Assembly (NCBI GenBank): GCA_922989275.2
Contig: OV277864.1
Span: forward strand, 52,513,550-52,577,549
Direction of reading: 5' to 3'
Origin: Gari tellinella
Lineage: Eukaryota > Mollusca > Bivalvia > Cardiida > Psammobiidae
Length of the DNA stretch: 64,000 nucleotides
Under the pieces are notes generated by a model that searched no databases, was not told the DNA's origin, and worked only from the letters and a program-made list of their open reading frames with translations. Shown piece by piece: positions 1,052 through 64,000 of the stretch. Position 1 is the first letter of the stretch; each line of letters starts with the position of its first letter. The translations under genes were made by a program, and so were the position numbers.

Positions 1052-1522
1052 TCAACCTATTTGTGCCTCATTTCCTACACAAGGGACATATGTAAACAAA
1101 AGCGTAGACTCAGATCAGATATCTTTTTGGGGCGTCTGATCAGAGTCTTCTTTGTTTGCTGATAGAAATTCAAATATAAAAGAAAACGAAAACAAAGATT
1201 TAGATCAGGAACTACATACATAACTAAATGAACTTACAGTCGAACTACGAAACCTCGAACACTCTGGTGGCGTTAAAAGTGTTGTTCGAGATTCAGGTGG
1301 TATGAAGTTTGAAACTTCAAGTTCGACTTTGTACTGCGATTGAGACACACAGCCGGTGTGTTGGGTATATCAGAATAACGTGTACGTTTTAAACACAATG
1401 ATTGGACAGATAACAAATTTGATCTCTAACATTTATATCTTACACATATATCTACATAAGGCAGAAATTGTCCGGTGTCAACTTGCCAACATTGGGCAAT
1501 CAACTTGGCGCAAATGGGTTAA
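1052..1522 (-). mobile_element. Family D MITE, degenerate, with an insertion
   Basis: Reverse copy of the TTAA-ended family D, seen better at 53829-54057. The left end reads ATCAACC (degenerate TTAACC) and the right end GGGTTAA at 1519-1522. The central palindrome is recognisable at about 1110-1175 (AGACTCAGATCAGA ... TCTGATCAGAGTCTTC) but its left inner arm is eroded. The stretch CTGATAGAAATTCAAATATAAAA after the core also follows the core in the copy at 59085. The element is longer than its relatives because about 200 bp, including a family F sequence, interrupts its right half. Confidence 0.6.
1237..1336. mobile_element. Family F short inverted-repeat element (degenerate)
   Basis: Starts CAGTCGAACTACG and ends CGACTTTGTACTG, with inner matching halves (CTCGAACACT and TGTTCGAG). 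It resembles the elements ending GAGTTTCGACTG at 40522 and GAGTTTCTACTG at 61515. It lies inside the family D copy, so it arrived later. Non-coding. Confidence 0.45.
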
Positions 1523-1613
1523 ATATTGTTAACATTAATACGCGTTCAACAGCTGCATTACACTCAGTTATAATTCAGGTCAAATGCCGATTAATTCGTC
1601 TGCCAAAATATAC

Positions 1614-1844
1614 TTAACCCTTTCGGCAAGATGTTTACCCCTCACCGCTTAATTGTCGTCTACTTGAGTATTATGGTCTGCAACAACGTTTCAAGGTTAT
1701 ATGTAATGTTGTTTGAATCAAGAAATATATATAAGGGTGTCAAACAATTTGGATCCTTATCAGACGCCGTGTTACACGACGTCTGAACTGAATTCAAACT
1801 GTTTGCAAAGTCGACATAATGCCACTACCGCACGAAAGGGTTAC
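1614..1844 (+). mobile_element. Family E MITE (TTAA-ended) with core palindrome
   Basis: Begins TTAACCCTTTCGG at a TTAA and ends CGAAAGGGTTAC, a one-base decay of GGGTTAA. The subterminal text CGTCTACTTGAGTATT ... GTTTCAAGG recurs in the copies at 37341 and 53316. The central palindrome spans 1741-1805 (CAAACAATTTGGATCC ... TTCAAACTGTTTG) with a GATCAGACGCC-type stem. TTAA targets and CCC termini are typical of piggyBac-like elements, so this is probably a non-autonomous relative; no transposase is present. Confidence 0.75.
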
Positions 1845-1910
1845 ATGTTTTCACACTTGTTAAGGGTGTATCAATGTCATGAGCCATTTTTTCAAAGTAT
1901 TAAACTTTTT

Positions 1911-2752
1911 TTCTATCATTGTTTTTTTGGAATAGCTATTTATGATGAATGAAAAAATGAAAAAAAAAATATGGTGGTGTCCTTTTTTTTAGCTACAGCG
2001 ATTTGAAAAAGGTATGTCAAATTTGGATTTTTTTCTTCAAATTTTACCCATTCAGAGTACAAGCTTCAGTAAAATCTATTTCAAAACAAAACAAACATGG
2101 TAATTTGGGTTTTCATTATTTATTTCATGTCTATGGTGGTATGTTCACATGTATAAACCAAAGTTAGACAAAGCAGGCACAAGGTTTGAACAATATGGAT
2201 CCTTGAATATCAAAAATATGCTTTATATAGGACATGATTTTATTAGATTTTTTATTTTATGAAAAAAAGTAAAAAAGTTTGAAAATGAAATAGTTCTAGT
2301 ATTAAACTTTTTCTTATATTCTACCAGATGAAAGCCCATAATAAGGCAGTTCAAAATATGAAAAGAAATTGAAAGGTCAGTGTTGACAATTTTGAGTTAT
2401 TAAAGTAAAATGAGTTATCGCCCCTTACAAAATTTACAAAAAAGTACCATACCGATGATATTTAGAGCTTTATAAATTTCACATTTGGTGACTTTTTTTT
2501 TCTTAAATTAGTTTTTGTATGAAGAAATACTACCATAGATAGGAAATAAATAACACAAAACCAAATTATCATATTTGTTTTCATTTAAAATGGGGTTTAT
2601 TGAAGCGGGCTGTTTGAAAAGGACAAAATAAGAGGAAGTGGGTGGGGTGAATTTTACATGGCCGTAGAGCCAACTGTTGTTCACCAAAATGTACACTTTT
2701 TCTATTTTTTCATTCATCTTAAATAGCTCTTCAATACAAAACCATCATAGAC
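1911..2752. repeat. Inverted repeat pair, possible foldback element
   Basis: About 70 bases at 1911-1978 (TCTATCATTG ... ATAGCTATTTATGATGAATG) are repeated in inverted form at 2683-2752. The spacer is about 700 bp of AT-rich DNA. The open frame on the minus strand at 2508-2717 begins inside the right arm and has no recognisable domain. It could be a small DNA transposon or foldback element; I could not define target-site duplications. Confidence 0.45.
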
Positions 2753-4482
2753 TATTGAGAAGAAAAATTGACATTTAAAAAGTATAACTCATTTTAGCTC
2801 TAACTGACAGTATAATTTATACATTGTATATCGCTTCTCACGAAATGTATGTATAAACAAGTCCAAGTATAACTATTACTGCACCTTCAACAATGTTAAT
2901 AACATTTTGGTAAAAACCATTGCGCTGCAAATTTCATCTCGGTTAATATTGACTATTCCTGCAAACTTAAATACAACCGATTTCCATATAGGTATATAGC
3001 AAATATTCATAGCAAAATAGTTGATTTTTTATGATTTATCGGGATACAGTGTATTTACCATGTCATCTATAGAGGGAGAAAGCACATAGAATGTTGGGTG
3101 AAAATATTTGATAAATACCAATACCACACAAACAAGGAGTTTGAACATATTAATCAGTCTAAAAATATTTATTGCAGAATTAGAAATCCACATCGAAAAA
3201 ACCAACCTTATATTAGAAGGGAATGCCATGTTTGAAAAGTATATGTGCAACATCATCGCATTGTACGTACATGTTGTCTCGATCGTTACTGATTTTAATC
3301 AATGTAAATGCACTTATTGATATATCAATCATAGCTGAAAATTAGCAAAACGGAAACGATAGTAGGTGTGCCAGCATTTACACTAGCTGGTTGACACTTA
3401 ATACGCAAATGTGTGTTTATACACTCACATTTGTGCAGGGGTACGCTAAGACTTTAATTTTTTTTGAGAGTTTAATCAATTATAGCTAGTCAGCAGTTGT
3501 GTGTATTTTGTTAAGTACGTTTCAATTATTCATATCTTAATGCTATTCTGCACAATGTTTAGTTGCGTTTAAGTGCATATTTACGCTGTGTTGTATTTAC
3601 GAACAACATTTCAGAACCTGATGATTTGGGTTTTTATAAATATAGTATTGTAAATTTTAACACAAATGCCGGAACACAAAATATGTCTTGCTATCGCTTG
3701 AAATGTGTTAGCAAATTATACTAAATGGCAATTGCACCGACGAAATATTTTAATAAGGATCGTGTTTTTAGCTTTTTGAATTATGTTTTTTAACATGTAC
3801 CGGCATTAAAGTGAGTTCTTAGTTTAAACTAGTGCTCATTACAAGAGCGTCTCACGCGGTTGACAACTTTCTTCTGTATTTTATTATCAGTGGAAAATGT
3901 ATTAAACGAGGTCAAAGGTCAAGGTCAATATCAACTGGAAAATAGTTTTGAATGACTGGTTAGGACTTTTTGGGAAACACGTTCATACTCCATACTTACT
4001 GAAGGCTGTAGACAGATAGTTGAAGAAGTTACTGCCAACGTTTATATTTCGTTCGACAACTACAACGCGGACTCTGGAGTGATAGTATAGTTCGTTGTTT
4101 TCTTCAAATACATTTTCTTTGTTGTTGATTTAACGTTACAGGTAACACAAATATGCTGGTAAAATGCGATTCACTGGCAGTCTGAAAAACTAATCAAGAA
4201 TACTCATATTTGGTCGTCAGTGTGCACAAAATAATGTAGCGCTTTGAATACTTATAGTCCATTTCCGCAGCAACGGTTTACGACCACAAAGCAACCATTT
4301 TAAGGACATTTGCCTGCTTATTTCAGCGAAGAAGTAATAACAAATATATTGGCTATAAATCTTAACTAACTTAGACTGTTCAGATATGCAAAGAGAACTA
4401 TGATACAGCGGAACAAACGTTAATAATTATTTACCAATTAACGCTTTTACGCTAAAATTATAATTTTTAAACAGTTAAGCGC
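2753..4482. other. No gene recognised
   Basis: AT-rich, with only short open frames. The one local oddity is a triple half-site AGGTCAAAGGTCAAGGTCA at about 3909-3927. Confidence 0.5.
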
Positions 4483-4530
4483 AATATCAGACGCCGGGAT
4501 ACCCGGTGTCTGATCAGGCTTCAAACTTTT
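4483..4530. repeat. Isolated core palindrome, truncated on the left
   Basis: Reads ATATCAGACGCCGGGATACCC and then its mirror GGTGTCTGATCAGGCTTCAAAC. This is the family A/E core without recognisable MITE ends around it, so it is either a remnant or a core separated from its host element. Confidence 0.6.
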
Positions 4531-5647
4531 AGCCATTTAAATTAGAATCACTAATAATAATTGTAAAAAAGTAATTATGTTCAAGATTATATGCAATGCG
4601 CTTTCATTTCGTTTAAACCGGAAATAATGACATCTACTCCGCTGTACTTACGCATGTGCACAATTTTAAACAGAACTAACGTATACATGTTTATATGTCA
4701 TGCGCGAAATAAACAAACCTCTATAATCATAGAAGGGTCATTTAACAAGTAACTCCAAGTAGTTTCGTTCACTGGCTTCTGCAGGCAATACAATATGTAT
4801 GCACTCTCCTTAATTGAGCTCAGTAAGATTTATTGTTTGAAAACACGCAAATGAAACACTCCTGATTTTACTGCAAAGTATACAGTAGAAACAAATATGC
4901 TATCCCTACAAGTGTTTTACTAAACAATACCACAGGAAAGCATGCACACTTTAAAAAAGCTGTTTGCATCTAAATTGAAAATAAACATTTGTTATGATAT
5001 ACATCCGAGAACTGCTTATGATGGTATCTTATCTTCTTCTCACTTATTTTCCTAATTTATCTTACCCTCATTGCCTGTATTTGCCTGCGGCACTCTTTCT
5101 GTACATGCATGTCTTCAAATATACGGAGCTGCTCTTTTGGTCTTTTTACATCGAGAGTTTTATTGCCTGTCTGCATTCCGATCTCTTTTTCTTTCTGATA
5201 CCTTGATATATGTGCCACTAGGTGTCTCTGTCGCTGTTTTGGAATCTCCTTCTGGTTTCTTTCACACTGTTTGTCCTTAAAATTGTTGTATTTACTGGTG
5301 TATGTATCTCTTGTTTGCTCTTTCTTGGACTGTATTTATTCTGTTCGGCTCGTCTTAAAAATATATTACTTAAACATGATAACAATATTACAGAAAAATT
5401 AAAACGTATACTTTACGTTATATTAACTTCTTAGACAACCAAATGAATGTGTTTCTGCTAGTGCAATGTATGATATACATTTAAATGTCTAGATATAGAC
5501 AGATATTCTGATAATTAATGTAGTGTGCCTATTGAAAGTTCATGGAATTGACAGTGATACAAAATGACGGATGTCTGATGTAAACATAATGCACACGCTT
5601 TGTTGTATTTTGTTCTGGTTATGCAAAATTATTTACAACGGTTACCA
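4531..5647. other. No gene recognised
   Basis: Contains overlapping open frames at 4994-5434 in two phases. The sequence there is T/C-biased and the conceptual peptides are unremarkable hydrophobic strings with no start context or splice pattern, so they are not called as genes. Confidence 0.5.
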
Positions 5648-5851
5648 GGGGCCCGTTTTACTAAACCACTTATGCAAATTATTTGCGTCAGATAAAAATA
5701 TAAATTTTAATTTTTGATTATCACTTGCTACAAACAGCACGTCCTCTGATCTGGCTATTTGCTGTTTGCAAACGTTTATGAGAAAAATAAGAGTTAAACG
5801 ATTTTGACCTACGCAAACGTTTTGCGTAAGTAGTTTAGTAAAACGGGCCCC
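5648..5851. mobile_element. Family K MITE (GGGGCCCG termini)
   Basis: About 30-bp inverted termini: GGGGCCCGTTTTACTAAAC at the left and the mirror GTTTAGTAAAACGGGCCCC at the right, followed inward by ACTTATGCAAA and TTTGCGTAAGTA. The centre has CAAACAGCA...CTGTTTGC, but compared with the copy at 47395 the left half of the palindrome is missing: only GTCCTCTGATCTGGCTATTTGCTG remains. Flanking CAG/CAG may be the target duplication. Confidence 0.75.
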
Positions 5852-5959
5852 AGGGTTCCAGATAAGATGGACTAAACTTAAAGACATTTCCTGATCTTTT
5901 CCCGGTTGTAACACCAACCCAGGTGTAAAATCATGCAGTCATGTGCGAGTTTTGTCCTT

Positions 5960-6219: not shown

Positions 6220-6356
6220 CTCACTCATTGCAGCACACAACTCTACGGTGTTACTAGTCGTTAGAATCGTCTCGAAGCGACAACTCTAATGAGTAATTAT
6301 AGTATACGTTTAAAGCAGAAATAAAGATTTCTTTTTTGGAATACTCTCCTTATTTT
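6220..6356 (+). mobile_element. Family M element, partial
   Basis: Contains the palindromic core GTTACTAGTCGTTAGAATCG ... CTCTAATGAGTAATTATAG, then AAAGCAGAAATAAAGATTT and ACTCTCCTTATTTT. The better copy is at 20395-20577. The left terminus could not be located. Confidence 0.55.
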
Positions 6357-8661: not shown

Positions 8662-9120
8662 AACAAGACTGCGCGTTCAATAAACGCTTATGCCCCCGGT
8701 GGCATCCTTGACAATATATTCTGAATCTTTTCTAAGTCCAAATTAGGTCAAGGTCAAGGTCAAATTGAGCTTTGGTATTACTGGTGGGTTGGTAATGGTC
8801 CAAGGCAATAACTGTATAAGTATAGAAGCATTGTAGTAAGTAGTGTTGATGCTAGACGAAACGGTAAAATCTAGTTAACCAAGAAATAGCCCATTCAAAA
8901 TATTCCAAGTCCAAATTAGGTCAAGGTCAATGTCAAAATCAAGGTTGGGTGATATTGGTGGATAGGGAATGGTCCAAGGCAACAACTGTATAAGTATCCA
9001 AGCATTGGAGTAAACGGTGTTGATGCTAGACGAAACGGTAAAATCTACTTCACCTGGTTACGGACAGACGGACAGGACGATTACTATATGCTCCCGCATC
9101 TGTCGATGCCGGGGGCATAA
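8662..9120 (+). mobile_element. 'Pearl'-type element, two core repeats
   Basis: Starts AACAAGACTGCGCGTTC, followed by TTATGCCCCCGGTGGCATC, and ends GATGCCGGGGGCATAA, so the ends form an imperfect inverted pair. Inside are two ~172-bp tandem core repeats, starting near 8731 (TCTAAGTCCAAATTAGGTCA) and 8903. A short ACGGACAGACGGAC microsatellite follows before the 3' end. This order (conserved 5' end, tandem cores, ACGG microsatellite, conserved 3' end) is that described for bivalve pearl elements. Each core repeat begins with AGGTCAAGGTCA half-sites. Non-coding. Confidence 0.85.
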
Positions 9121-10129: not shown

Positions 10130-10422
10130 CAGCGTTCCCTCTCTACAACAACATCCAATGGGATACAAATAAAGCTTGCGTTCTTCGGAGGGAGTCGTTA
10201 TAGGGAGGGAAATCGACTAACATTTGTCACTCGTCATTAAGTGTTTTTCTGTCAAAATGTTCATTATGTATCTTTGAGAAAAACAACAGACGACAATCAT
10301 AAACGGACAACATTGCAGTCGTGAATAGGTTGGACATAATTGCCCTTTTTGGGGAACAACCGCCATGATCGTTGTAAGGAGGGAGTCGTTGTTGGGAGGG
10401 CTGTTGTAGAGAGGGAACACTG
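10130..10422 (+). mobile_element. Family B MITE lacking the core palindrome
   Basis: TA-flanked, from CAGCGTTCCCTCTCTACAAC to GAGGGAACACTG. It has the family B subterminal modules CTTCGGAGGGAGTCGTTATAG and CGTTGTAAGGAGGGAGTCGTT. It is 293 bp, against about 356-368 bp for the other copies. The missing segment is the core: the text runs ACATTTG-TCACTCGTCATTAAG where the copy at 58303 has CGTTTG, the 65-bp palindrome, then TCACTC. The loss is clean at a GTTTG boundary. Confidence 0.85.
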
Positions 10423-10904: not shown

Positions 10905-11262
10905 CAGTGTTCCCTCTCTACAACGGCCCTCCGGACAACGACTCCCTCCTTACAACGACCCTTGCTGCAGTTCCCTGAACAGGGCAATTATATGTGTAAT
11001 ACTTTCACTTCAGCAATATCGTCTGCTTAAAACTGTCGTCTGCTGTTTTTCTAAAAGTTAAATATTGGACATTGTGAGAGTAAAAACTTAATTACGAGTG
11101 ACAAACAGCTTGAATCCAGATCGGACGCCGCGTTACGCGGCGTCTGATCTGGATTTAAGCTGTTTGAAATGTAAGCAATGTTCCCTCTCTATAACGACTC
11201 CCTCCGAACAACGCACACATTTTGTGTCTCCCTTTTGGTGTCGTTGTTGAGAGTGAGCGCTG
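10905..11262 (-). mobile_element. Family B MITE with core palindrome
   Basis: TA-flanked and in reverse orientation: CAGTGTTCCCTCTCTACAAC at the left, GAGAGTGAGCGCTG at the right. The core spans 11102-11166 (CAAACAGCTTGAATCCAGATC ... GATCTGGATTTAAGCTGTTTG). The open frames at 11178-11488 run across this and the next MITE and are not genes. Confidence 0.85.
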
Positions 11263-12222: not shown

Positions 12223-12765
12223 CAGTAACCTGTCTCTATAATGACCATACCATTATGTTAAGAAATATGTGTTTATGTCCGGTGACTGATTAAAATAAAG
12301 ATACGGTAAGAACTTTCTGTTTTCCTTTCAACTTGCTTGAAGCTGTCACCTTTTTAATACAGAGCACCCTCTCTACAACGACACCCATTGGGACACAAAA
12401 TCATATGCGTTGTTCGGAGGGAGTCGTTATAGAGAGTGAAATTTATTTGCATTTGCAATCAGCTTGAATTCAGACCAGATGCCGCGTCACGCGGTGTCTG
12501 CTCTGGATTCAAGCGGCGTGTGACTCGTCATTATGATTTTTCTATCAAAATGTCCAATATGTAAATTTGAGAATACCAGCAGACGACACTTTTAAGAAAA
12601 CGATACTGCAACCGTTAAAGCTTAAGACATACTTGTCATGCTTTTGGAACAGCGGCAAGGGTCGTTGTAAGGAGGGAGTCGATGCTAGGCGGGCCGTTAT
12701 ATAGAGGGAACACTGTACACTCAATTTGCTTTCGTTCCAGTTGTCGTAAAAGAGAGGTAGTACTG
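12223..12765. mobile_element. Family C MITE split by a family B MITE
   Basis: The left part, 12223-12359 (CAGTAACCTGTCTCTATAATG ... AAGCTGTCACC), and the right part, 12716-12765 (TCAATTTGCTTTCGTTCCAG ... TAGTACTG), join into one family C element matching 44605-44782 once 12360-12715 is removed. This nesting shows that family B was still moving after this family C copy had landed. Confidence 0.85.
12360..12715 (+). mobile_element. Family B MITE nested in family C
   Basis: CAGAGCACCCTCTCTACAAC ... GAGGGAACACTG, flanked by TA on both sides, which is the target duplication within the family C copy. The core is at about 12455-12517 (CAATCAGCTTGAATTCAGACC ... TCTGGATTCAAGC), with CGCGTCACGCG at the apex and its right end worn (GGCGTG instead of CTGTTTG). 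Confidence 0.85.
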
Positions 12766-14263: not shown

Positions 14264-14915
14264 AAACAAGACTGCGCGTTCGATAAACGCTTATGCCCCC
14301 GGTGGCATCCTTGACAATATATTCTAAATCTTTTCTAAGTCCAAATTAGGTCAAGGTCAGGATCAAACTGAGCTTGGTGAGTTAGTAATGGTCCAAGGCA
14401 ACAACTGTATAAGTATCAAAGAATTGTAGTTAACAGTGTTGATGCTAGATGAAACGGTAAAATCTAGTTAACCGAGAATGAGCCCATTTAAAATATTCTA
14501 AGTTCAAAATAGGTCAAGGTCAAGGTTAAAATCAAAGTCTGGTGATGTAAGTGGATAGGGAATGGTCCAATGCAACAACTGTATAAGTATCAAAGCATTG
14601 TAGTCAGTTGTGTTGATGCTAAACGAAATGGTAAAATCTAGTTAACCAAGAAATAGCCTGTTTAAAATATTCTAAGTCCAAACTAGGTCAAGGTCAAGGT
14701 CAAAATCAAAGTTTGGTGATATTGGTGGGTAGGGAATGGTCCAAGGCAACAACTGTATAAGTATCCAAGCATTTGGGTAAGGGGTGTTGATGCTAGATGA
14801 AACGGTAAACTCTATTTAACCTTGTTACGGACGGAAGGACTGACGGACGGACGGACTGACTGACTGACAGGACGATTACTATATGCCTCCGCATCTATCG
14901 ATGCCGGGGGCATAA
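14264..14915 (+). mobile_element. 'Pearl'-type element, three core repeats
   Basis: Same termini as the element at 8662 (AACAAGACTGCGCGTTCG ... GATGCCGGGGGCATAA) with three tandem core repeats, beginning near 14334, 14497 and 14671 (periods about 163 and 174 bp). The microsatellite before the 3' end is longer here: GACGGACGGACGGACTGACTGACTGAC. The two pearl copies therefore differ in core number and microsatellite length. Confidence 0.88.
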
Positions 14916-16867: not shown

Positions 16868-17118
16868 TTAACCCTTTGAACCCTTGTCCCGCATATAGGC
16901 GTCCTTTTCAAACAGTGTACATGTGAAAAGAACACTTGTACTAAGCAAACAGTGAAGACCCAGATCAGAGGGCTCCGAAAGGAGCCCTCTGATCAGGGTC
17001 TTCACTTGTTGTAATAATGCCAAACATTGACAAAAACAACCCTTTAAAGTCAGAACTGGACTAGACTAAATTGGAAACTGGAATTGTCCATTTAAAGTTT
17101 CAGGGAGGAAAGAGTTAA
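16868..17118 (+). mobile_element. Family I MITE (TTAA-ended) with variant core
   Basis: Starts TTAACCCTTTGAACCC and ends GGAAAGAGTTAA. The core at 16956-17011 uses a different arm, CAAACAGTGAAGACCCAGATC, then AGAGGGCTCC, GAAA, and the mirror GGAGCCCTCTGATCAGGGTCTTCACTTG. The apex is thus GGGCTCC/GGAGCCC rather than ACGCCG/CGGCGT, and the arms match each other almost perfectly. Confidence 0.8.
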
Positions 17119-18559: not shown

Positions 18560-18806
18560 CAGTGGAGACTCTGTTATTCTTTCCCGTTTAAACGCAAACG
18601 TACGCAAACGCAAAGCACTAAAACATAGAAAAGAACAACTTTTGGACAATTCTGATAAATTCTTGTTAATCTTGGTGGCAAACAGTTTGGATCCTGATCA
18701 GACGCCGGGTTACCCGGCGTCTGATCTGGCTCCAAACTCTTTGCACTGCAAATAATAGTTTTAGCGTAAACGCGTTTATTGGGAAAGAATAACAGATTAT
18801 CCACTG
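18560..18806 (-). mobile_element. Family A MITE, complete
   Basis: 247 bp, TA on both sides. Terminal inverted repeats of about 25 bp: CAGTGGAGACTCTGTTATTC at the left and the mirror, ending ATTATCCACTG, at the right. Internal GTACGCAAACGCAAAG is family-specific. The core is at 18679-18743 (CAAACAGTTTGGATCCTGATC ... GATCTGGCTCCAAACTC). CAGT ends and TA target suggest Tc1/mariner-type mobilisation. Recurrent conceptual peptides (SLEPDQTPGNPASDQ and similar) come from reading through this MITE and are not proteins. Confidence 0.9.
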
Positions 18807-18925: not shown

Positions 18926-19130
18926 TTAACCCCATCACTGCCGTGACGTCATAAACTTTGAACAACTATCGTCTGCTTTGATGTCTTAAATTCAACTTTT
19001 AGACTTTTTGACATATAGAATATTGAGATGAGTGCTAATCAATTTTGATCCTCACCAGACGCCACGTTACGCGACGCCTCATCAGATCAAAACTGGTTTC
19101 AAATAACAAATGTACTCGGAGTAAGGCAGT
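18926..19130 (+). mobile_element. Family E MITE, diverged
   Basis: TTAACCCCATCACTGCCG at the left, then ATCGTCTGCTTTGATG. The core is at about 19044-19103 (AATCAATTTTGATCCTCACC, AGACGCCACG / TTACGCGACGCC, TCATCAGATCAAAACTGGTTTC). The right end is worn. Confidence 0.65.
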
Positions 19131-20394: not shown

Positions 20395-20577
20395 GATAAG
20401 GGGGAGTAATTTGAACAAATTAGCCATGTTTTAACTTATACAGCACCAAATGCTATGATGTAACTACTTATTAGAATCGTCTCTTTGAGTCGATTCTAAT
20501 GAGTAGTAACATCATAGAGATTAAAGCAGAAATAAAGATTTTAAATTTTATAAATACTCCGCTTTTCTTGAGCCCTG
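20395..20577. mobile_element. Family M element, complete
   Basis: Inverted ends CAGGGCTCCAGATAAG and CTTGAGCCCTG. The central palindrome is ATGATGTAACTACTTATTAG ... CTAATGAGTAGTAACATCAT with GAATCGTCTCTTTGAGTCGATTC at the apex. The partial copy at 6220 shares AAAGCAGAAATAAAGATTT. Family and target preference unknown. Confidence 0.7.
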
Positions 20578-26694: not shown

Positions 26695-26900
26695 TTTACT
26701 CATTCGCCGTTATTGTGTCGTCTGCTTCAATATTGATATCTGCAAAATTGTTTCAAAGTTAGATTAATGTTAAGGTTATATTACTTTATGAATATTGATA
26801 CGAGTTTCAAAGAGTATGGATGAGCAGACGCCAAATGATGCGATGTCTGATCTGGATCAAAACTGTTTACTAGGTAAACTTTATGTAACTCCGGCGGTGA
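26695..26900 (+). mobile_element. Family E MITE, 5'-truncated
   Basis: CGCCGTTATTGTGTCGTCTGC, then GTTTCAAAGTTAG, then a core GAGCAGACGCC / AAATGATGCGATGTCTGATCTGGATCAAAACTG. This matches the interior of the copy at 53316. TTAACCC was not found at the left. Confidence 0.6.
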
Positions 26901-27176: not shown

Positions 27177-27427
27177 TTAACCACATACCCTATAGCCCGT
27201 TTCTAGTATAGAAGATAGGTGGCAACTTAAAGCAGGTTGAAAGTAAAGCAGATTGCGCCATATGGCGCATTCTGCTTTACTTTCAGCCTGCTTTAAGCCA
27301 TTACCTGCTAGAATAAGGAAAGTATTAAATATGACACATAATCATTACGGTATATATTGGAACTATTTTCTTCAGCGGATGAATCAAATGAATGTGCTAA
27401 AAGTCGCTTCTATAAGGAAATGGTTAA
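27177..27427 (-). mobile_element. Family H MITE (TTAA-ended)
   Basis: TTAACCACATACCCTATAG at the left and GGAAATGGTTAA at the right. The central palindrome CTTAAAGCAGGTTGAAAG ... CTTTCAGCCTGCTTTAAG has an apex GCAGATTGCGCCATATGGCGCATTCTGC. It is a reverse copy of the element at 56864: the outer text TTTTCTTCAGCGGATGAATC corresponds to GATTCATCCGCTGAAGAAAA-type sequence there. The frame at 27253-27456 runs through it. Confidence 0.8.
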
Positions 27428-28384: not shown

Positions 28385-28556
28385 AAGATTGCTTAAAAGC
28401 GCATTTGCAAACAGTTTGTCGTTGCGCGGCGTCTTTTCAGGATCTGAACTGTTTGACACTCGTTTTGAAAGTCATCCTGCCTTATTCTTTAACTTTCAAA
28501 CGATATTGCAGACAAAAACAATTGAAGCAGACGATAATAAAGCGGTGAAGGGGTGA
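28385..28556 (-). mobile_element. Family E MITE, reverse and truncated
   Basis: GCAAACAGTTTGTCG / TTGCGCGGCGTC / TTTTCAGGATCTGAACTGTTTGAC, then CACTCGTTTTGAAAG and TTGAAGCAGACGAT, the reverse of the family E interior. The core is shortened at its apex. Confidence 0.55.
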
Positions 28557-37340: not shown

Positions 37341-37563
37341 TTAACCCTTTCGATGCAAAATCGTTCGGGAGGTTTTACCGCGCAGCCGCTTAATAGTCGT
37401 CTGCTTCCGTGTTGATGCCTGCATGGACGTTTCAAAGTTCAAATATCGATCCGAGGGTCAAATTGTTTTGATCCTGAGCAGACAAGCCGTTACGCAGCGT
37501 CTGATTTGGATCCAAACTGTTTGCAAAGTCGACTGTATTTGACTACGGTACCGAAAGGGGTAA
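37341..37563 (+). mobile_element. Family E MITE with core palindrome
   Basis: TTAACCCTTTCGATGC ... CCGAAAGGGGTAA. The core is at 37459-37523 (CAAATTGTTTTGATCCTGAGC, AGACAAGCCG / TTACGCAGCG, TCTGATTTGGATCCAAACTG). Subterminal GTCGTCTGCTTCCGTGTTGATG matches the copies at 1614 and 53316. Confidence 0.8.
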
Positions 37564-40387: not shown

Positions 40388-40389
40388 AA

Positions 40390-41515: not shown

Positions 41516-41674
41516 GGAATATTACTATACTTTGCATATCTTATGCACCGGATCACTCTCGTTGTGTGTGTAAAGGCTATATCCAACTCGACCTTCGGTC
41601 TCGTTGGATATAGCCTTTACACACACAACGAGAGTGATCCGGTGCATAAGATATGCAAAGTATAGTAATATTCC
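41516..41674. repeat. 159-bp near-perfect hairpin with TTCG loop
   Basis: Left arm GGAATATTACTATACTTTGC ... GGCTATATCCAAC, right arm GTTGGATATAGCC ... GCAAAGTATAGTAATATTCC. Arms of about 77 bp meet at CGACC-TTCG-GGTC. Mismatches are confined to two or three bases beside the loop, so the structure is either very recent or maintained. No second copy was found in the window. No ORF. A transcript would fold into one long duplex. Confidence 0.9.
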
Positions 41675-43263: not shown

Positions 43264-43455
43264 CAGCGGAGAATCTGTTATTCTTTCCCAATAAACGCGT
43301 TTACGCTAAAACTATAAGTTGCAGTGCAAACAGTTTGCCACCAAGATAAGCAAGAATTATCATAATTGTCAAAAAGTTGTCATTTTCTACGTTTTAGTGT
43401 TTTGCGTTTGCGTACGTTTGCGTTTAAACGGGAAAGAATAACAGATTCTCCACTG
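43264..43455 (+). mobile_element. Family A MITE lacking the core palindrome
   Basis: TA-flanked, CAGCGGAGAATCTGTTATTC ... CAGATTCTCCACTG, with all family A subterminal sequence. It is 192 bp, against 246-249 bp for complete copies. The text runs TGCAGTGCAAACAGTTTGCCACC, where complete copies have CAAACAGTTTG, then GAGCC...GGCTC, then CAAACTGTTTGCCACC. Exactly the palindrome between the two GTTTG words is gone, with no other damage. Confidence 0.92.
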
Positions 43456-45370: not shown

Positions 45371-45759
45371 ATTGTGAAATCCCTCTTAACCGGGCATGTG
45401 TGGGGACATCATAAATGTTCGGTTTAAAGGGGTATCCGGTTTAAAGGGGGTTTAACCCTTTACCCCATAGTATCCATGTAGTATGGAAGATAGCTGACCA
45501 CTTAAAGCAGGTTAGAATTAAAGCAGAATGCGCTTTAAGGCGCATTCTGCTTGACATTCAACCTGCTAAAAGCTAGTATCTGCGAGAATGTATCAGGTAT
45601 ACCTATTTTAATCAGTGAAGGAATAAAGCTTTGACGTAAAATGCCGTTTTTATGATGTAATGGTTCAAAAAATAGAAGAGTTTAAATAGAACCAATTTTT
45701 TTGTTTGGTTTAGAGAACATTACGGTATTTAAGGGTTCCGGTTTAGAGGGGTTTCACTG
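45371..45759 (-). mobile_element. Family G MITE containing an H-type core, reverse
   Basis: Right end GGTTTAGAGGGGTTTCACTG; left end ATTGTGAAATCCCTC (worn CAGTG). GGTTTAACCCTTTACCCCATAG marks the family H terminus inside, followed by the palindrome CTTAAAGCAGGTTAGAATTAAAGCAG / AATGCGC...GCGCATTCTGC. GAAGGAATAAAGC and GTAAAATGCCG match the reverse of 39724-40057, confirming a composite G-plus-H family. Confidence 0.75.
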
Positions 45760-47394: not shown

Positions 47395-47580
47395 AATTTT
47401 AAATTTTAATTTATTATCACTTGCTACAAACAGCAAATAGCCGAATCAGAGGACGCGCTTTTAGCGCGTCCTCTGATCTTGCTATTTACTGTTTGCAAAC
47501 GTTTATGATCGAAAAATAAGAGTTAAACGATTTTGAATTACGCAAAAAATTTGCGTAAGTTGTTTAGTAAAACGGGCCCC
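47395..47580. mobile_element. Family K MITE, 5'-truncated, with full core
   Basis: The right end GTTTAGTAAAACGGGCCCC is intact. The core at about 47428-47497 is complete: CAAACAGCAAATAGCCGAATC, AGAGGACGCGC, TTTT, AGCGCGTCCTCTGATCTTGC, TATTTACTGTTTG. The left GGGGCCCG end was not found. Comparison with 5648 shows that copy lost the left half of this palindrome. Confidence 0.8.
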
Positions 47581-49364: not shown

Positions 49365-49601
49365 CAGTGGGGAAACGTTATTCTTTCCCAAAATACGCGT
49401 TAACGCTAAAACTAGTCTGCCAGTAAAATCAGTTTGGAACCAGATAAGACGTCGAATAACACGGCGTCTTGTCAGACTCCAAACTGTTTGGCACTATGCT
49501 TAGGATTAATAGTCAGGATTGTCAAAAAGTTTGTTTTCTCCATTTTAGTACATTACGTTTCGATTGCATTTAAACAGGAACTAATAATGTTTTATTCGCT
49601 G
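49365..49601 (+). mobile_element. Family A MITE, old diverged copy
   Basis: CAGTGGGGAAACGTTATTCTTTCCC at the left. Core at about 49428-49490 (TCAGTTTGGAACCAGATAAGACG ... CGGCGTCTTGTCAGACTCCAAACTG). The right end is worn to TAATGTTTTATTCGCTG. The 89-codon frame at 49434 is a read-through. Confidence 0.75.
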
Positions 49602-53315: not shown

Positions 53316-53549
53316 TTAACCCTTTCGGTGCCAAATTAATCTTTAGGTGTTTTGCCATCTACTGTTATTGTGTCGTCTGTTTTAAAATAACTGTATTCAA
53401 TATCGTTTCAAATTAGAGTAATTGAAGTATGACTTAAGAAATATCGATTCGAGTGTCAAATAGTTTGGATTCTGATCAGACGCTGCAGTACGGGACCAAA
53501 ATGTTTACAAAATATCGACTTGATGCGACTCCGGCAAAGAAAGGGTTAA
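53316..53549 (+). mobile_element. Family E MITE with asymmetric core
   Basis: TTAACCCTTTCGGTGCC ... AAAGAAAGGGTTAA with intact TTAA at both ends. The core at about 53456-53512 has a full left arm (CAAATAGTTTGGATTCTGATC, AGACGCTGC), but the right arm has jumped from AGTACGG to GACCAAAATG, losing the inner half. Confidence 0.85.
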
Positions 53550-53828: not shown

Positions 53829-54057
53829 TTAACGCATTTGTGCCCAGTGGATTCTTCCATGCTTATATATAAGATTAGTTCATTTTTTATCAAAGGGATG
53901 CCTGGTCAAAATTTTCATTTTCATATTGTTTTACATTGAAATTTCTATCATCAAACAGTGTAGACTCTGATCAGACGCCGCATAATGCGGCGTCTGGTCA
54001 GAGTCCACAATGTTTGCATATGTCCCATATATGGGATCGTGGGCACTAATGAGTTAA
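53829..54057 (+). mobile_element. Family D MITE, reference copy
   Basis: 229 bp, TTAACGCATTTGTGCCCAGTG ... GGGCACTAATGAGTTAA with TTAA at both ends. The core at 53952-54016 (CAAACAGTGTAGACTCTGATC, AGACGCCGCATAATGCGGCG, TCTGGTCAGAGTCCACAATG) has an arm specific to this family (TGTAGACT / AGTCCACA). A second palindrome CCCATATATGGG follows. Confidence 0.85.
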
Positions 54058-54617: not shown

Positions 54618-54863
54618 CAGTGGAGAATCTGTTATTCTTTCCCAATAAACGCGTTTACGCTAAAACTATTATTTGCAGTGCAAACAAATTGGAGCCAGAT
54701 CAGACGCCGGGTAACCCGGCGTCTGATCAGGCTCCAAACTGTTTGCCACCAAGATAAACAAGAATTATCAGAATAGTCCAAAAGTTGTTCTTTTCTACGT
54801 TTTAGTGCTTTGCGTTTGCGTACGTTTGCGTTTAAACGGGAAATAATAACAGATTATCCACTG
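54618..54863 (+). mobile_element. Family A MITE, complete
   Basis: 246 bp, TA-flanked, CAGTGGAGAATCTGTTATTC ... CAGATTATCCACTG. The core is CAAACAAATTGGAGCCAGATC, AGACGCCGGGTAACCCGGCG, TCTGATCAGGCTCCAAACTG, almost perfectly paired; only the outer left AATTG differs. Confidence 0.92.
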
Positions 54864-54939: not shown

Positions 54940-55158
54940 TTGGGTAAAGTGTTAAACGCAAACGAAAAGCAAACGCATTGCACTAAGATATAAAACATAG
55001 ATATGTTTGACAAATTAGAATGTTTAAATTCATATGAGCGGCAAACAGCTTGGAATCTGATCAGACGCCTGGTATTCAAGTTCCAAACTGTTTGCAAATT
55101 GAAATAATAGTGTTAGCGTAAACGCGTTTATTGGAAAAGAATGACGTTCTTTCCACTG
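54940..55158 (-). mobile_element. Family A MITE, subfamily 2, left end lost
   Basis: AAACGCAAACGAAAAGC, GCATTGCACTAAG and TTTGACAAATTAGAATG match the copy at 61052 rather than the majority type. The core is asymmetric (CAAACAGCTTGGAATCTGATC, AGACGCCTGG, TATTCAAGTTCCAAACTG). The right end TTCTTTCCACTG-TA is intact. Confidence 0.75.
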
Positions 55159-55222: not shown

Positions 55223-55440
55223 CTACCAATTTCTGCGGGAGATGTTTCATTTTATGTTTCCGTTTCATTGTCGTCTGCTTCAATTTTGTTGTCTGCAATG
55301 TCGTTTCAAAGTTATAAAATGAGGCAGTATAACTGTAGATATTTCAAAACGAGTGTCAAGCAGTTTGGATCCTGATTAGACGCCGCGTAACGTGGCGTCT
55401 GGTCAGGGTATTAACTGTTTGCAAACGCACTTCAAAGCGT
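55223..55440 (+). mobile_element. Family E MITE, ends worn
   Basis: TTGTCGTCTGCTTCAATTTTG, GTTTCAAAGTTAT, CGAGTGTCAAGCAGTTTGGATCC, AGACGCCGCGTAACGTGGCG, TCTGGTCAGGGTATTAACTG, then GCAAACGCACTTC. The TTAACCC ends are no longer visible. Confidence 0.7.
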
Positions 55441-55957: not shown

Positions 55958-56182
55958 TTAACCCTTTACCTCATACATGTAGCTTAGGCTTAGTTTTGAA
56001 GACATGCAAATAATTAAAACAGGTTGAAAGTAACGTAGAATGCGCCTCAAGGCGCATTCTGCTTTACTTTCAGCCTGTTTAAGCTACTGTCTGCTAGGAT
56101 ATAGGAAACATTTCGTATGGTATATGTTCATGACTGCGTAACTTTGAAATATAATAAACGTTTCTGTTGGGGAAGGGGTTAA
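55958..56182 (+). mobile_element. Family H MITE (TTAA-ended)
   Basis: TTAACCCTTTACCTCATAC ... GGGGAAGGGGTTAA. The palindrome is AAAACAGGTTGAAAGTAACG, TAGAATGCGCC / TCAAGGCGCATTCTGC, TTTACTTTCAGCCTGTTTAAG. Both TTAA ends are intact. Confidence 0.85.
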
Positions 56183-56863: not shown

Positions 56864-57116
56864 TTAACCCTTTCCCTTATAGAAGCGACTTTTAGCACAT
56901 TCATTTTATTCATCCGCTGAAGAAAATAGTTCCAAATTATACCGTAATGAATATGTGTCATATTAAATACTTTCCTTATTCTAGCAGTATATAGCTTAAA
57001 GCAGGCTGAAAGTAAAGCAGAATGCGCCTTAGGGCGCATTCTGCTTTACTTTCAACCTGCTTTAAGTAGTCACATATCTTCAATACTAGAAACAATGCTA
57101 TCAGGTAAAGGGTTAA
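56864..57116 (+). mobile_element. Family H MITE, reference copy
   Basis: 253 bp including TTAA at both ends: TTAACCCTTTCCCTTATAG ... CTATCAGGTAAAGGGTTAA, an imperfect inverted pair. The palindrome is GCTTAAAGCAGGCTGAAAG, TAAAGCAGAATGCGCC / TTAGGGCGCATTCTGC, TTTACTTTCAACCTGC. The pyrimidine tract continues on either side, so the insertion site is unambiguous. Confidence 0.92.
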
Positions 57117-57686
57117 AGCACGTCGTTCTCCGCCTGTGATTTTCTGTCTCTGCCTGTCTGGCTCTGTCCCTGTATGTTTGTATATTTGTTCTTCTCTTTC
57201 TCTCTTTCTTTCTGAATGTGTCTCTGTATGTATGTCTGTATGTCTGTCTCTCTCTCTCTCTCCCTGTCTTTATCAATGTTTGTTTCTCTTTCTCTCTATC
57301 GATGTGCCTCTCTATGGCTATCCCTTTGTTTCTCTCACACTTTATTTGTCTCTCGCTTTATCTTCTCCCATCATGTACATGTACATGTACCTCTCTGTCT
57401 CAGTGTCTATGCTGCTCTCTGTGTCTGTCTGTGTGCTTTTTCATTTTGATTCTCGTATTTTCGATGTCCTTGTCTCCATCTCTCTGTCTGTCTCTTTCTA
57501 ACTCCCCGTTTCTGGCTATGTCCATCTTTCTCTCCGTCTTTTCCCGTCTGCCTCTTTGTATACATTTGTATGTATGTCTCTCTCTGCTCGTTTCTCTGTT
57601 TGTCTGTCTCTCTGTCTGTTTGGCGGTATGTATGTATGCCTGTCTCTTTCTCACCTTTTCTCTCTCTATCGACATATCTCCCTCTT

Positions 57687-57690
<4 letters not shown>

Positions 57691-57724
<34 letters not shown>
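57691..57724 (+). repeat. (CT)17 microsatellite
   Basis: Uninterrupted CT run at the end of the pyrimidine tract. Confidence 0.95.
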
Positions 57725-57725
<1 letters not shown>

Positions 57726-57727
<2 letters not shown>

Positions 57728-58167
57728 ACCATATTTTTCTCAGCACATGCCCCTGTTACTTTATTTGTTAATCCCAGCTAGCCGTTTTCAAACAAAAGAC
57801 TTTACACACAATTAAAAACAACCAGTGATATGAAATTCAACATTTTAAACACTCGTTTTTTTCTCTTCCTGCGAGGTTTGTGTACGCTGATACTTGTGAT
57901 TTAATGAGGTATTTCGAGATATACATTATGGAAATAATATATGTAAATGATATTAGAAATAGTTTAAACGTGACAGTTTGAAAGTTGGACTTTTAAATAG
58001 ATCTAACTTAAACAATTGGAAGCATTGCAAGGATCACTAGACATGTGTGTTAAAACTAAAATGGACACCAGTCAAAGTTTCCTGAGAGAATAAATCATCA
58101 ACATATGGGCACACGTTTAGACTTTAATACTGGTAAGGTATTTTTACTTTGTCTTGGTTATTCAATA
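57726..58167. other. No gene recognised
   Basis: AT-rich spacer. Confidence 0.4.
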
Positions 58168-58302: not shown

Positions 58303-58670
58303 CAGCACTCCCTCTCTACAACGACATCCAGTGGGAGACACAGAGTGTGTGCGTTGTTCGGAGGGAGTCGTTATAGAGAGGGAAAATAAAGATTTGGCTT
58401 ACGTTTGCAAACAGCTTGAATCCAGATCAGACGCCGCGTAGCGCGGCGTCTGATCTGGAATCAAGCTGTTTGTCACTCATAACTATATTCATTCTATCAC
58501 AATGTCAACTTAAATGTAATTTTAAGAAATACAGCAGACGACAATTTTAAGCAGACGACATTGCAGCAGTAAAAGCGTTAGTCATAATTGTCCGGTTTTG
58601 TGAACTGAGACAAGGGTCGTTGTAAAGAGGGAGTCGTTGTTGGGAGGGCCGTTGTAGGGAGGGAACGCTG
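58303..58670 (+). mobile_element. Family B MITE, reference copy
   Basis: 368 bp, CAGCACTCCCTCTCTACAAC ... AGGGAGGGAACGCTG, TA on each side. The left subterminal block TTGTTCGGAGGGAGTCGTTATAGAG and right block GTCGTTGTAAAGAGGGAG form secondary inverted motifs. The core at 58408-58472 (CAAACAGCTTGAATCCAGATC, AGACGCCGCGTAGCGCGGCG, TCTGATCTGGAATCAAGCTG) is almost perfect. Confidence 0.92.
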
Positions 58671-59084: not shown

Positions 59085-59309
59085 GGCCATTTGAGCCTAG
59101 CGTCGCATCAAAGGGTACATAGGCAAACTGTGTAGACTGATCAGACGCCGCATTATGCGGCGTCTGATTAGAGTCAACCCTGTTTACTGATAGGAATTTC
59201 AATATAAAACAAAACAAAAATAAACATTTAGACCAGGTACCCCTTAGGATAAAAAATGACTAATCCAACAGATAAGCATTGGTGAATCAACTTGGCATAA
59301 ACGGGTTAA
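59085..59309 (-). mobile_element. Family D MITE, reverse
   Basis: Core at 59124-59186 (CAAACTGTGTAGACTGATC, AGACGCCGCATTATGCGGCG, TCTGATTAGAGTCAACCCTG). The right end ATAAACGGGTTAA is intact; the left end is worn (GAGCCTAGCGTCGC). GATAGGAATTTCAATATAAAAC matches the reverse of the 53829 copy. Confidence 0.75.
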
Positions 59310-59542: not shown

Positions 59543-59637
59543 CAGTGGATAACACTTTATTTGTCCCAAAAAAAGCTTTTACGCTAAATGTATTATTTCA
59601 AATACAAATAGTTGGGAGCCAGATCAGAAGCCGGGTA
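59543..59637 (+). mobile_element. Family A MITE, left third
   Basis: CAGTGGATAACACTTTATTTG, AAGCTTTTACGCTAAATG, then AGTTGGGAGCCAGATC, AGAAGCCGGGTAA. It breaks off at the palindrome apex, next to a family C piece. Confidence 0.7.
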
Positions 59638-59802
59638 ATTGATATTATAAAATACCAGTGACAGCTTAAGGCAAGATGAACGTGTCGCAGAAAGCTCCTA
59701 TAAGAGTTTCTGTTTTACGTCCATCTTGCTTTAAGCAGTCGCCTGCCTTAAACTACTGCTAATTAACACAATTCAGTGGTCGTATTATACTGGTTGTTAC
59801 TG
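59638..59802. mobile_element. Family C MITE, left end lost
   Basis: GTGACAGCTTAAGGCAAGATG ... CATCTTGCTTTAAGCAGTCGCCTG, then AATTAACACAATTCAGTGG and GGTTGTTACTG. Its left end is replaced by the family A remnant, whose palindrome apex is the junction. Confidence 0.7.
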
Positions 59803-59911: not shown

Positions 59912-60330
59912 AGAGTAAAACCTCTCTATAACGACAATTGAGTCAACCCATTTATACCCAGTGGATGCTTCCATGTTTATATATTGGATTAGTCCACTTT
60001 TAATCAAGTGGATGCCTGGTCGAAATCCTCATTTTCATTTTGTTTTATATTGAAATTCCTATCAGCAATCAGTGTAGACTCTGATCAGACGCCGCATAAA
60101 GCGGCGTCTGATCAGAGTCTTCACTGTTTGCCTATGTCCCATATATGGGATCGTGGGCACACATGGGATAAGCACATTAGTTTGTGTTTAAATAATGTGA
60201 TTACTCATATCAGGGTGGAAGTAAAACAGAAAGCTCATTTAAGGTTTACTTTCACTATGCTTTAAGCTTCCCTCTGTCTTTCATAGACTCAAGTAGTATT
60301 GTTGTAGATGTCGTTATAGGGGGGTTACTG
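59912..60330. mobile_element. Family C MITE split by a family D MITE
   Basis: The left part AGAGTAAAACCTCTCTATAAC (59912-59942) and the right part 60172-60330 (GGTGGAAGTAAAACAG ... GATGTCGTTATAGG ... GGTTACTG) make one element when 59943-60171 is removed. Its core is of the second type (GTAAAACAGAAAGCTC / ACTTTCACTATGCTTTAAGC). Confidence 0.75.
59943..60171 (+). mobile_element. Family D MITE nested in family C
   Basis: TCAACCCATTTATACCCAGTG ... GGGCACACATGGGATAA, TTAA ends changed by one base each. The core at 60066-60130 (CAATCAGTGTAGACTCTGATC, AGACGCCGCATAAAGCGGCG, TCTGATCAGAGTCTTCACTG) is well paired. CCCATATATGGG is present as in 53829. Confidence 0.82.
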
Positions 60331-60366
60331 TATACATGTACACAATTGAAACGTTATTAATACATA

Positions 60367-60612
60367 CAGTGGAGAATGTGTTATTCTTTCCCAATAAATG
60401 CGTTTACGCTAAAACTATTATTTGCAGTGCAAACAGTTTGGAGCCAGATCAGACGCCGGGTAACCCGGCGTCTGATCAGGCTCCAAACTGTTTGCCACCA
60501 AGATAAACATGAGTTATCAGAATTGTCCAAAAGTTGTACTTTTCTACGTTTTAGTGTTTTGCGTTTGCGTACGTTTGCGTTTAAACGGGAAAGAATAACA
60601 GATTATCCACTG
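60367..60612 (+). mobile_element. Family A MITE, complete
   Basis: 246 bp, TA-flanked, CAGTGGAGAATGTGTTATTC ... CAGATTATCCACTG. The core CAAACAGTTTGGAGCCAGATC, AGACGCCGGGTAACCCGGCG, TCTGATCAGGCTCCAAACTG is essentially perfect apart from CAGATC/GATCAG next to GGAGCC. One of the youngest-looking copies. Confidence 0.93.
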
Positions 60613-60736
60613 TATAACCACACTTTTCTATCAACATACATGTACGAGTTTTTTAAAACATACACAACATGAATAGGTATTAGCAACAATGTAGATAAAG
60701 ATTAACTGCTACATTTGAATGCGTTTAGTCTTATTT

Positions 60737-61051: not shown

Positions 61052-61300
61052 CAGTGGAGAAACCGTTAATTCTGTCCCGTTTAAACGCAAGCGAAACGCA
61101 AACGCATTCGAATAAAACGAAGAAAATGACAAGTGTTTGACAACTCTGAATGTTGATTTTAACATGGATGACAAACAGTTTGGAGCCTGATCAGACGCCG
61201 GGTTACCCGGCGTCTGATCTGGCTCCAAGCTGTTTGCATTTGAAATATTTAGTTTTAGCGTAAACGCGTTTATTGGGAAAGAATAACATGTTCTCCACTG
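61052..61300 (-). mobile_element. Family A MITE, subfamily 2, complete
   Basis: 249 bp, TA-flanked, CAGTGGAGAAACCGTTAATTC ... AACATGTTCTCCACTG. Between end and core it has AACGCATTCGAATAAAACG and GTGTTTGACAACTCTGAATG, which differ from the majority type. The core CAAACAGTTTGGAGCCTGATC, AGACGCCGGGTTACCCGGCG, TCTGATCTGGCTCCAAGCTG is the same as subfamily 1. Confidence 0.9.
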
Positions 61301-62888: not shown

Positions 62889-63245
62889 CAGTGCTCCCTC
62901 TATACAACGACACCCAATTCGATACACAAAATGTGCGTTGTTCGGAAAATGTCGTTATAGTGAGGAAAATGATTTAAATGTACAAACAGCTAGGATGTAG
63001 ATCAGACGCCGCGTAACGCGGCGTCGGATCTGGATTTAAGCTGTTTGTCACCCGTCATTAAGTTGTTTCTGTCAAAAATGGTCAATACGTAACTTTGAGA
63101 AATACAGCAGACGACAACTTTAAGCAGACGATTTTACAGCAGTAAAAACGTTAGACTTAATTGCCCTGTTTAAAAAACTACAGCAATGTTCGTTGTAAGG
63201 AGGGAGGCGTTGTTTGGACAAGGACAGTGTAGGGATAGAACGCTG
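62889..63245 (+). mobile_element. Family B MITE with core palindrome
   Basis: CAGTGCTCCCTCTATACAAC ... GGGATAGAACGCTG, followed by TA. The core at 62983-63047 is CAAACAGCTAGGATGTAGATC, AGACGCCGCGTAACGCGGCG, TCGGATCTGGATTTAAGCTG: the inner stem is perfect, the left outer arm has drifted. Confidence 0.88.
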
Positions 63246-63339
63246 TACTTATATTTAAAGACATTAAGCCAGTCCATTCACTGATTACCCCCTCATTGTT
63301 CTTACTTGGTGTGAAAATACAGGTAGATCACGTGAAAAT

Positions 63340-63530
63340 GGCTCAGGTAACGGCTCAGCCATCTGAAGCTTTGAATAGAGGCCCTTACATAATAGATCTC
63401 AATAGGTTTTTCAATGGGGTTTACTAACCAAGCTATCAAAAATTAGGTGCGGGCCTCACATGAGACGCCTGAATGATTCTTTGCCTAGACGCTAGCCGAG
63501 TAAGTGCATGGGCTCCATGCTTTGACTCAA
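63340..63530 (-). repeat. Dispersed repeat, copy 2
   Basis: Reverse of 5960-6160: GGGCCTCACATGAGACGCC, AATGGGGTTTACTAACCAAGC and AGAGGCCCTTAC match GGCGT...TGTGAGACCC, TTAGTTAGTAAAACCCATTG and GAGGGCCTCT there. Confidence 0.55.
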
Positions 63531-63684
63531 ACTTTCTACGGTGTAGGTGTAACCACTCAAGCTTGGTCATGTAATGTCTTTAAGAAATATAAATAGATGA
63601 CAATAGTTTAAAGCAGAGGGCGATATAGTAGTAAAGTGGCTAATGACCATCCGTTATAACGACTGTTTAACCCTTTCATAGTTA

Positions 63685-63770
63685 CAGTGGAGAATCTGTT
63701 ATTCTTTCCCGATAAACGCGGTTACGCTAAAATTAGTTTTTCTTTTACAAACAGTTTGGAGCCCTGATCT
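63685..63770 (+). mobile_element. Family A MITE, left third
   Basis: CAGTGGAGAATCTGTTATTC, CGCGGTTACGCTAAAATTAG, ACAAACAGTTTGGAGCCCTGATC and then unrelated TTAGGATCAAGG. Like the copy at 59543, it breaks within the palindrome. Confidence 0.75.
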
Positions 63771-63809
63771 TAGGATCAAGGTACTCTTAACATGACACAG
63801 CTGAACTTA

Positions 63810-64000
63810 CAGTGGAAAATCTGCTATTCTTTCCCAATAAACGCGTTTACGCTAAAACTATTATTTGCAGTGCAAACAGTTTGGAGCCAGATCAGACGCC
63901 GGGTAACCCGGCGTCTGATCAGGCTCCAAACTGTTTGCCACCAAGACAAACAGGAATTATCAGAATTGTCCAAAAGTTGTTCTTTTCTACGTTTTAGTGA
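63810..64000 (+). mobile_element. Family A MITE, cut by the window end
   Basis: TA then CAGTGGAAAATCTGCTATTC; a complete near-perfect core CAAACAGTTTGGAGCCAGATC, AGACGCCGGGTAACCCGGCG, TCTGATCAGGCTCCAAACTG. The right end lies beyond 64000. Confidence 0.9.

Follow-up and report, generated by a model that had tools for sequence, protein, structure and literature searches.

In the genome of the clam Gari tellinella, a palindrome of the form CAAACAG-arm-GATCAGA-stem-loop-mirror lies within several families of miniature inverted-repeat transposable elements (MITEs) that have different ends and target sites. We analyzed this palindrome, which we call the core, in a window of 64,000 nucleotides (positions 52,513,550 to 52,577,549 of contig OV277864.1, assembly GCA_922989275.2), in other sampled loci, and by counting motifs across the genome. 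The core has a distinct version in each main family, and with the exception of one position, the versions differ in ways that preserve base pairing between the two arms. Our preferred reading, which we hold tentatively and put at close to an even chance, is that the core forms the hairpin at the center of these MITE families: it is coupled to its flanks, it originated in TTAA-ended elements, it spread by nesting, and its fold aids amplification.

Abundance of the core

The genome comprises 1,597,604,326 bases in 80 contigs, and our motif counts cover both strands of all of it. The sampled DNA (288,189 bases, or 288 kb) consists of the window and other loci, including 20 stretches of 10 kb that were taken at round coordinates from contigs C1 to C12 (200 kb). 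A core model built from 31 exact cores identified 34 cores in the window (E < 1e-3) and 208 in the entire sample. The 20 stretches contain 148 cores, or one per 1,351 bases; if the remaining genome is alike, then we estimate about 1.18 million cores per genome, and taking about 60 bases per core, they would make up about 4% of it.

A palindrome of this form had been described in an original prediction made from the letters of the window alone, and its reality is confirmed by the motif counts. The half-motif CAAACAGN{4,20}GATCAGA occurs 362,959 times on the forward strand and 363,474 times on the reverse strand, while the reversed pattern occurs just 54 and 89 times, which excludes chance patterning. 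Similarly, a single letter shuffle of all 288 kb yielded no long palindromes, as compared to 76 core palindromes and 54 others in the actual sequence. The inner hairpin of one family's core (the A type, 31 bases) is perfect at 98,579 places in the genome. The window had no match in Rfam at the gathering score, which speaks against a known structured RNA, and a literature search with the core letters gave no match whose title indicated a transposon subject.

MITE families that contain the core

Clustering the cores by their outward flanks gave 26 groups with multiple members and 144 singletons. The main families are A (TA target, CAGTGGAG ends), B (TA target, CAGNGCTCCCTC ends), and the TTAA-ended families T, T3, F, and G. 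The end types that had been listed for the window, namely A, B (given as TA/CAGNGNTCCCTC), several TTAA-ended families, and an element K with GGGGCCCG ends at 5648..5851, are all present. Profile searches placed 171 of the 208 cores in recognized MITE flanks: 73 in A, 68 in T (with T3), 12 in B, 9 in F, and 9 in G. Most of the other 37 are low scoring; three are well kept (position 1501 of locus L006, 5628 of L012, and 5153 of L014). We had considered orphan cores as evidence for independent mobility and rejected them: initially, 65 cores had no place in the main flank families (47 were without any clustered flank), and the profile searches reduced these to the 37.

Families A and B have the terminal inverted repeats (TIRs) and the short, uniform size of MITEs. 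For family A, we found 42 pairs of TIRs in 288 kb (27 of 111 TIR hits were unpaired); 40 of the 42 elements contain the core, 34 are flanked by TA on both sides, and the 40 with a core are 176 to 257 bases long. For family B, there are seven paired TIRs, with the core in six, TA on both sides of five, and lengths of 340 to 476 for the six with a core. Thus, target-site duplications are found as TA in A and B; by eye, there is also a duplication of CAG around the single two-ended copy of K, which would make a third target type. The TTAA families are classified by the sequence of their ends, which read TTAA. K resembles PIF/Harbinger-type elements in the 3-bp repeat on both sides and the GGGCCCG ends of its one two-ended copy.

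The core is probably inherited with its flanks

The original prediction proposed that the palindrome is exchangeable or separately mobile, and it named agreement between cores and flanks as the result that would speak against this. We assigned each core in the 288 kb to a type by its core letters alone and to a family by its flanks alone. All 108 unambiguous copies agree and none are discordant, although the core-type consensuses were derived from the same copies, so this is a measure of consistency within the sample and not an independent prediction. (Of the remaining cores, 12 were ambiguous, 23 were too short, and 65 had not yet been given a flank family.) At the level of copies, then, the prediction of a mobile unit was not supported. 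What does stand of the proposed hairpin cassette is that one module occurs within differing ends and target sites.

In a search with the flanks only, 279 of the 315 flank ends that reach the boundary adjoin a hit to the core model (accepting matches up to E = 10), while 35 do not and 1 is at an edge; some elements enter these counts repeatedly, since the models for the T, T3, and B flanks overlap and an element contributes both of its sides. Among the copies that lack a core, the cleaner ones comprise an A element that has collapsed to CAAACAGTTTG (43264..43455), where the usual A flanks are present and the inner part between TTTG repeats is gone; a copy at locus L001 with the same collapse; and a B element at 10130..10422, where the left and right flanks are joined at TTTG (ACATTTG/TCACTCG). 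From their letters, these look like deletions of the hairpin between TTTG repeats. Several other coreless copies are too decayed to read. By eye, TTTG both precedes the core and ends it in T and B, which is possibly a 4-bp duplication around the core, but not in A, F, or G. Overall, the core shows no sign that requires separate movement: it is probably inherited together with its flanks.

Base pairing is preserved between families

We compared the consensus cores of six families. Of 31 pair positions, 13 are variable, and at 12 of these 13, every family maintains a Watson-Crick pair. The sole unpaired position is 17, which lies between the outer arm and the inner stem and is A.A in A and T and T.T in G. 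Across the 15 pairwise comparisons of the six cores, there are 78 two-sided differences that preserve pairing and 11 other differences, all of them at position 17. CAAACAG and GATCAGA are invariant, while most of the 9-base arm and the inner stem vary in step. The mismatch at position 17 is also found in 24 of the 25 perfect A-type inner hairpins in the sample, and its strand is tied to the loop base. When folded as DNA, the core has a stem of up to 31 pairs and a loop of 3 to 4 bases, and three cores gave energies of -36.4 to -41.2 kcal/mol (z = -13.6 to -16.9). None of the six consensuses contains a G.U pair.

Changes within resident copies have a different pattern. Across the genome, we counted one substitution, GATC to GACC or its partner, at a single pair of the A-type hairpin, using copies that are otherwise perfect over 31 bases. 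There were 1,528 one-sided changes (753 + 775), 36 two-sided changes, and 98,579 unchanged copies, so just 2.3% of changed pairs (36 of 1,564) are compensated. Still, 36 two-sided changes are more than the 5.9 expected by independence. Double changes at non-partner positions, which we counted as a control, were also raised (18 and 15 genome-wide), which implies that the age of the copies accounts for part of the excess. Compared to the control mean of 16.5, 36 is significantly high (Poisson P = 2e-5), assuming that the control pair (GGTC...GATC) mutates like the counted pair. We fetched 20 of the 36 two-sided copies: about five are near the consensus, and the others are old and unlike each other. 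Their mean distance was 0.31, versus 0.11 among 22 controls, so they are not one subfamily.

We also considered complementary double changes that are private to single copies. In the 288 kb, the core palindrome (P1) has 15 of these at true partners and 2 to 8 at each of eight shifted controls. P2a, a version of a second palindrome that is described below, shows no excess (1 versus 0 to 3). We rejected templated correction as the main force: in tests of P1, of P2a, and across the genome, the signal is positive in P1, it is absent from the private changes of P2a, and it is too weak overall.

Because changes in resident copies are mostly one-sided, while differences between founders are all two-sided outside position 17, pairing seems to be kept at founding and not by repair of resident copies. 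This suggests that pairing is required, or strongly favored, when a copy founds a family. Probably the pairing has persisted because folding helps an element to spread.

Flank kinship and the composite family B

The original prediction described the sequences outside the core as unrelated, and this is true, at the sensitivity of our tests, of A as compared to T, B, F, and G, but not of the right flank of B versus T and T3 and probably not of the right flank of K versus the left flank of T. We tested 66 pairs of flanks against shuffled sequences. Next to the core, the right flanks of T, T3, and B are homologous (z = 5.3 for T and B, 9.1 for T and T3, and 7.1 for T3 and B, with none of the 400 shuffles as high in each case). 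In T3 and in some copies of T, the shared right flank ends in GCAGTGAAGGGGTTAA. In the B consensus, the likeness to the T/T3 right flank extends to GCAGTGAAAGCGTTA and is followed by B's own TIR sequence. This arrangement makes B a composite in which TA-type ends enclose a T-type TTAA element, or half of one, that runs as far as its GTTA end.

The right flank of K resembles the left flank of T (P = 0.0028 and 0.0058 for two related copies), which suggests that K is also kin to T, in a weaker case than that of B. Weaker likenesses among the 66 pairs include T3 versus side 8 of G (P = 0.005) and B5 versus cluster 10 (P = 0.01). The flanks of A looked similar by eye to those of T, B, or T3, and this kinship was rejected because it failed both the shuffle test and the profile test.

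The homologous flanks have diverged more than the cores that they adjoin. Mismatches in the flanks are 27 of 104 aligned letters for T and T3, 30 of 104 for T and B, and 28 of 103 for T3 and B (26 to 29%), versus 1, 5, and 6 differences in 65 core letters for the same pairs (1.5 to 9%). Within families, the divergence is 7 to 13% for cores and 10 to 24% for flanks.

How the core may have spread, and alternative explanations

In our preferred scenario, the core would have arisen in an old TTAA-ended lineage. Core-bearing TTAA elements would insert into other transposons, and by this general route the core may have reached families with TA and CAG targets. The hairpin would be a cis-acting structure that raises a copy's chance of amplification, whichever transposase moves that copy, and copies whose hairpin is intact or has been re-paired would found new families. 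The one tolerated mismatch at position 17 (A.A or T.T) may be a hinge or a recognition point instead of decay. A related possibility from the original prediction, close to this scenario, is that the palindrome is repeatedly acquired because a hairpin aids persistence.

Several observations weigh against this scenario. Single copies of B are variable at the GTTA point; the left TTAA half is absent from B, which obliges us to suppose a later deletion; and the left flank of B is unlike that of T (P = 0.46). The flanks of A have no kinship with those of T, T3, B, F, or G at the sensitivity of our shuffle and profile tests, which weakens the case for an origin by nesting in A, the commonest family. 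The conservation of cores within families may partly reflect ascertainment, as the cores were found with the core model. The two-sided changes that are left over in resident copies exceed expectation, which favors a weak contribution of templated repair. Finally, a core that is common to several end types is unlikely to act in transposase binding.

A bolder version of the scenario, which we consider unlikely, is that the core is a propagation hairpin that is independent of any transposase, that has been taken up by elements of at least three target types because it recruits the host's replication or repair machinery to multiply them, and that now occupies about 4% of the genome. We are similarly doubtful, if a shade less so, that mutation alone maintains the perfect palindrome, with one arm as the template for the other (by quasipalindrome correction or template switching) and no selection. 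This would explain the 15 private doubles of P1 at true partners, the excess of the 36 partner doubles over both the expectation and the non-partner control, and the symmetry of the P2b elements described below, with the same flank cluster on both sides in 10 copies. However, the non-partner doubles are raised as well, so that a mixture of ages covers part of the excess; the private doubles of P2a show none; and compensated pairs are a small minority of the changed pairs. Furthermore, wholesale copying of an arm would erase the mismatch at position 17, which persists in both A and T, with compensated differences flanking it at positions 14 and 30. That the palindrome is a mobile unit that inserts into MITEs would fit with the same core being present in families with TA, TTAA, and CAG targets, especially as A has only the core in common with the others. 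The TTTG repeats of T and B could be read as the unit's target duplication, the two collapsed A copies and the TTTG-joined B copy as empty sites, and the three well-kept cores without a recognized flank as solitary units. But there are no discordant pairs among 108, A, F, and G lack the TTTG repeat beside the core, collapsed copies are the expected product of slippage between TTTG repeats, and 171 of 208 cores lie in recognized flanks, with most of the rest low scoring. We therefore think that a mobile unit is quite improbable.

Plain common descent, with a functionless hairpin that is just what remains recognizable of old families, gains some support from T, T3, and B, which on one flank are demonstrably a single lineage. 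It is already strained by the covariation: neutral decay would give one-sided changes in founders, yet the 12 variable pairs other than position 17 show no such change. Also, homologous flank of equal age has 26 to 29% mismatches versus 1.5 to 9% in the core. We consider this explanation very unlikely. We give even less credence to the idea that the hairpin acts as RNA, as a source of small RNAs or double-stranded RNA, and that its pairing is kept for that purpose. The long stem and short loop would suit such a role (although these come from folding as DNA), but there is no Rfam match at the gathering score in the window, and the six P1 consensuses have no G.U pairs, which RNA would allow; P2a has a single T.G.

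Relation to known elements

The interiors of MITEs are usually regarded as filler. In this clam, what we estimate to be about a million elements are best conserved in their interior hairpin, and its pairing is preserved across ends that point to different transposases. If our scenario is correct, then the explosive multiplication of some MITEs would have a general cause that does not depend on the transposase. Family B also illustrates how one type of transposon can come to lie inside another and be carried by it.

The original prediction stated that no described system does this, which we would amend. A literature search for MITE families with common interiors gave one close match, the CMITEs of Acropora corals (Wang et al. 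2010, PMC2872659). As described in the sections of that paper that bear on this comparison, CMITEs are TTAA-target families with different TIRs and a conserved internal region of 75 bp; with a single exception among the first eight elements, the variant of the interior corresponds to the TIR family; a new element, CMITE-IN, arose from a nested CMITE insertion; A. millepora is estimated to have about 1,600 copies; and the authors suggest that the interior has a role in transposition. CMITEs are therefore the closest precedent that we found, with an internal region that is better conserved between families than the ends are, as in the clam. In those same sections, only TTAA targets are described, whereas A and B of the clam use TA and K uses CAG. 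The main text does not contain "palindrom," "hairpin," "stem," or "secondary structure." By description, not by comparison of sequences, the clam elements are set apart by their scale, their target types, and the pair-preserving changes.

The T2-MITE/Kolobok elements of Xenopus are also described as long-lived TTAA-target MITE subfamilies; unlike for the clam hairpin, neither "palindrom" nor "hairpin" occurs in the main text (PMC6004289). In yeast, work on RNase H2 and the template switching that corrects quasipalindromes reportedly concerns mutations that extend the identity of the arms in imperfect inverted repeats (PMC3820800). In resident copies of the clam core, by contrast, two-sided changes account for a small share of all changes, and one mismatch persists.

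Other palindromes in the sample

The 54 long palindromes in the 288 kb that are not cores show that such palindromes are common. One of them, P2 (CTTAAAGCAGG...GCAGAATGCGCC), has 94 loci in all, of which the 200 kb contain 78, and it repeats the pattern of the core in being common to TTAA and TA elements. P2a is in TTAA-ended elements (in the window, at 56995..57066 and also at 27226-27297, 45501-45572, and 56013-56084), while P2b is in TA elements with CAGTAAAACCTCTC ends. All 17 loci in the TA flank cluster are P2b, the other clusters contain 58 P2a and 1 P2b, and 18 loci have no cluster. By eye, P2a and P2b have about 18 further bases in common on one side. The P2b elements are symmetrical: in 10 copies, both sides belong to flank cluster 2. 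The T.G that P2a retains is at position 12.

A third module, P3 (GAATCGTCTC), has 10 loci, including 20457..20513 and 6247-6298 in the window and others in L011, L022, and L028. The ends of these elements read like CAGGGCTCCAGATAAG, and the arms differ between copies. The top-scoring non-core palindrome of the sample, a near-perfect palindrome of 121 bases (CATATCTTATGCACCGG...) at 41535-41655 of the window, is unlike P1 to P3 by eye.

Copies in the window

A family A element with a little flank spans 60360..60614, with its core at 60430-60494. Other A cores are at 4469-4530, 18679-18743, 28116-28180, 49428-49490, 54681-54745, 55042-55094, 61172-61236, and 63873-63937, and there is a partial one at 59605-59638. 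Family B cores lie at 58408..58472, 11102-11166, 12456-12514, and 62983-63047. Among the TTAA-ended families, flank profiles identified a T-type core with both T flanks at 55357..55421, and other cores with T or T3 flanks are at 1741-1805, 19040-19098, 26808-26868, 28409-28455, 37459-37523, and 53457-53494. Family F has cores at 60066..60130, 1099-1158, 53952-54016, and 59124-59185. The family G core at 16946..17008 has a different inner stem (GAGGGCTCC), and another G copy has a shortened core (28666-28708). The K element has CAG at 5646-5648 and 5851-5853, and most of the hairpin is missing from its core (5731-5768); a second K copy has a full core (47427-47495), and only the right part of that element is recognizable.

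We also noticed a direct repeat of about 290 bases at 8784-9073 and 14377-14840, where the copies are 83 to 89% alike and two of them overlap near 14.5 kb, and a long, low-complexity stretch rich in TCTC and TCTG (57218-57781) that gives rise to a mechanical open frame of 187 codons. Outside the window, contig C80 (L029) is mitochondrial and encodes COX1 in the invertebrate mitochondrial code. Among the 120 protein matches listed, the best for this COX1 are Macoma balthica (93%) and Donax variegatus (91%), which makes a tellinoid bivalve the likely host, while its identity is 71% to Scrobicularia and 69% to a second Macoma entry. The two low values may reflect sex-linked mitochondrial lineages.

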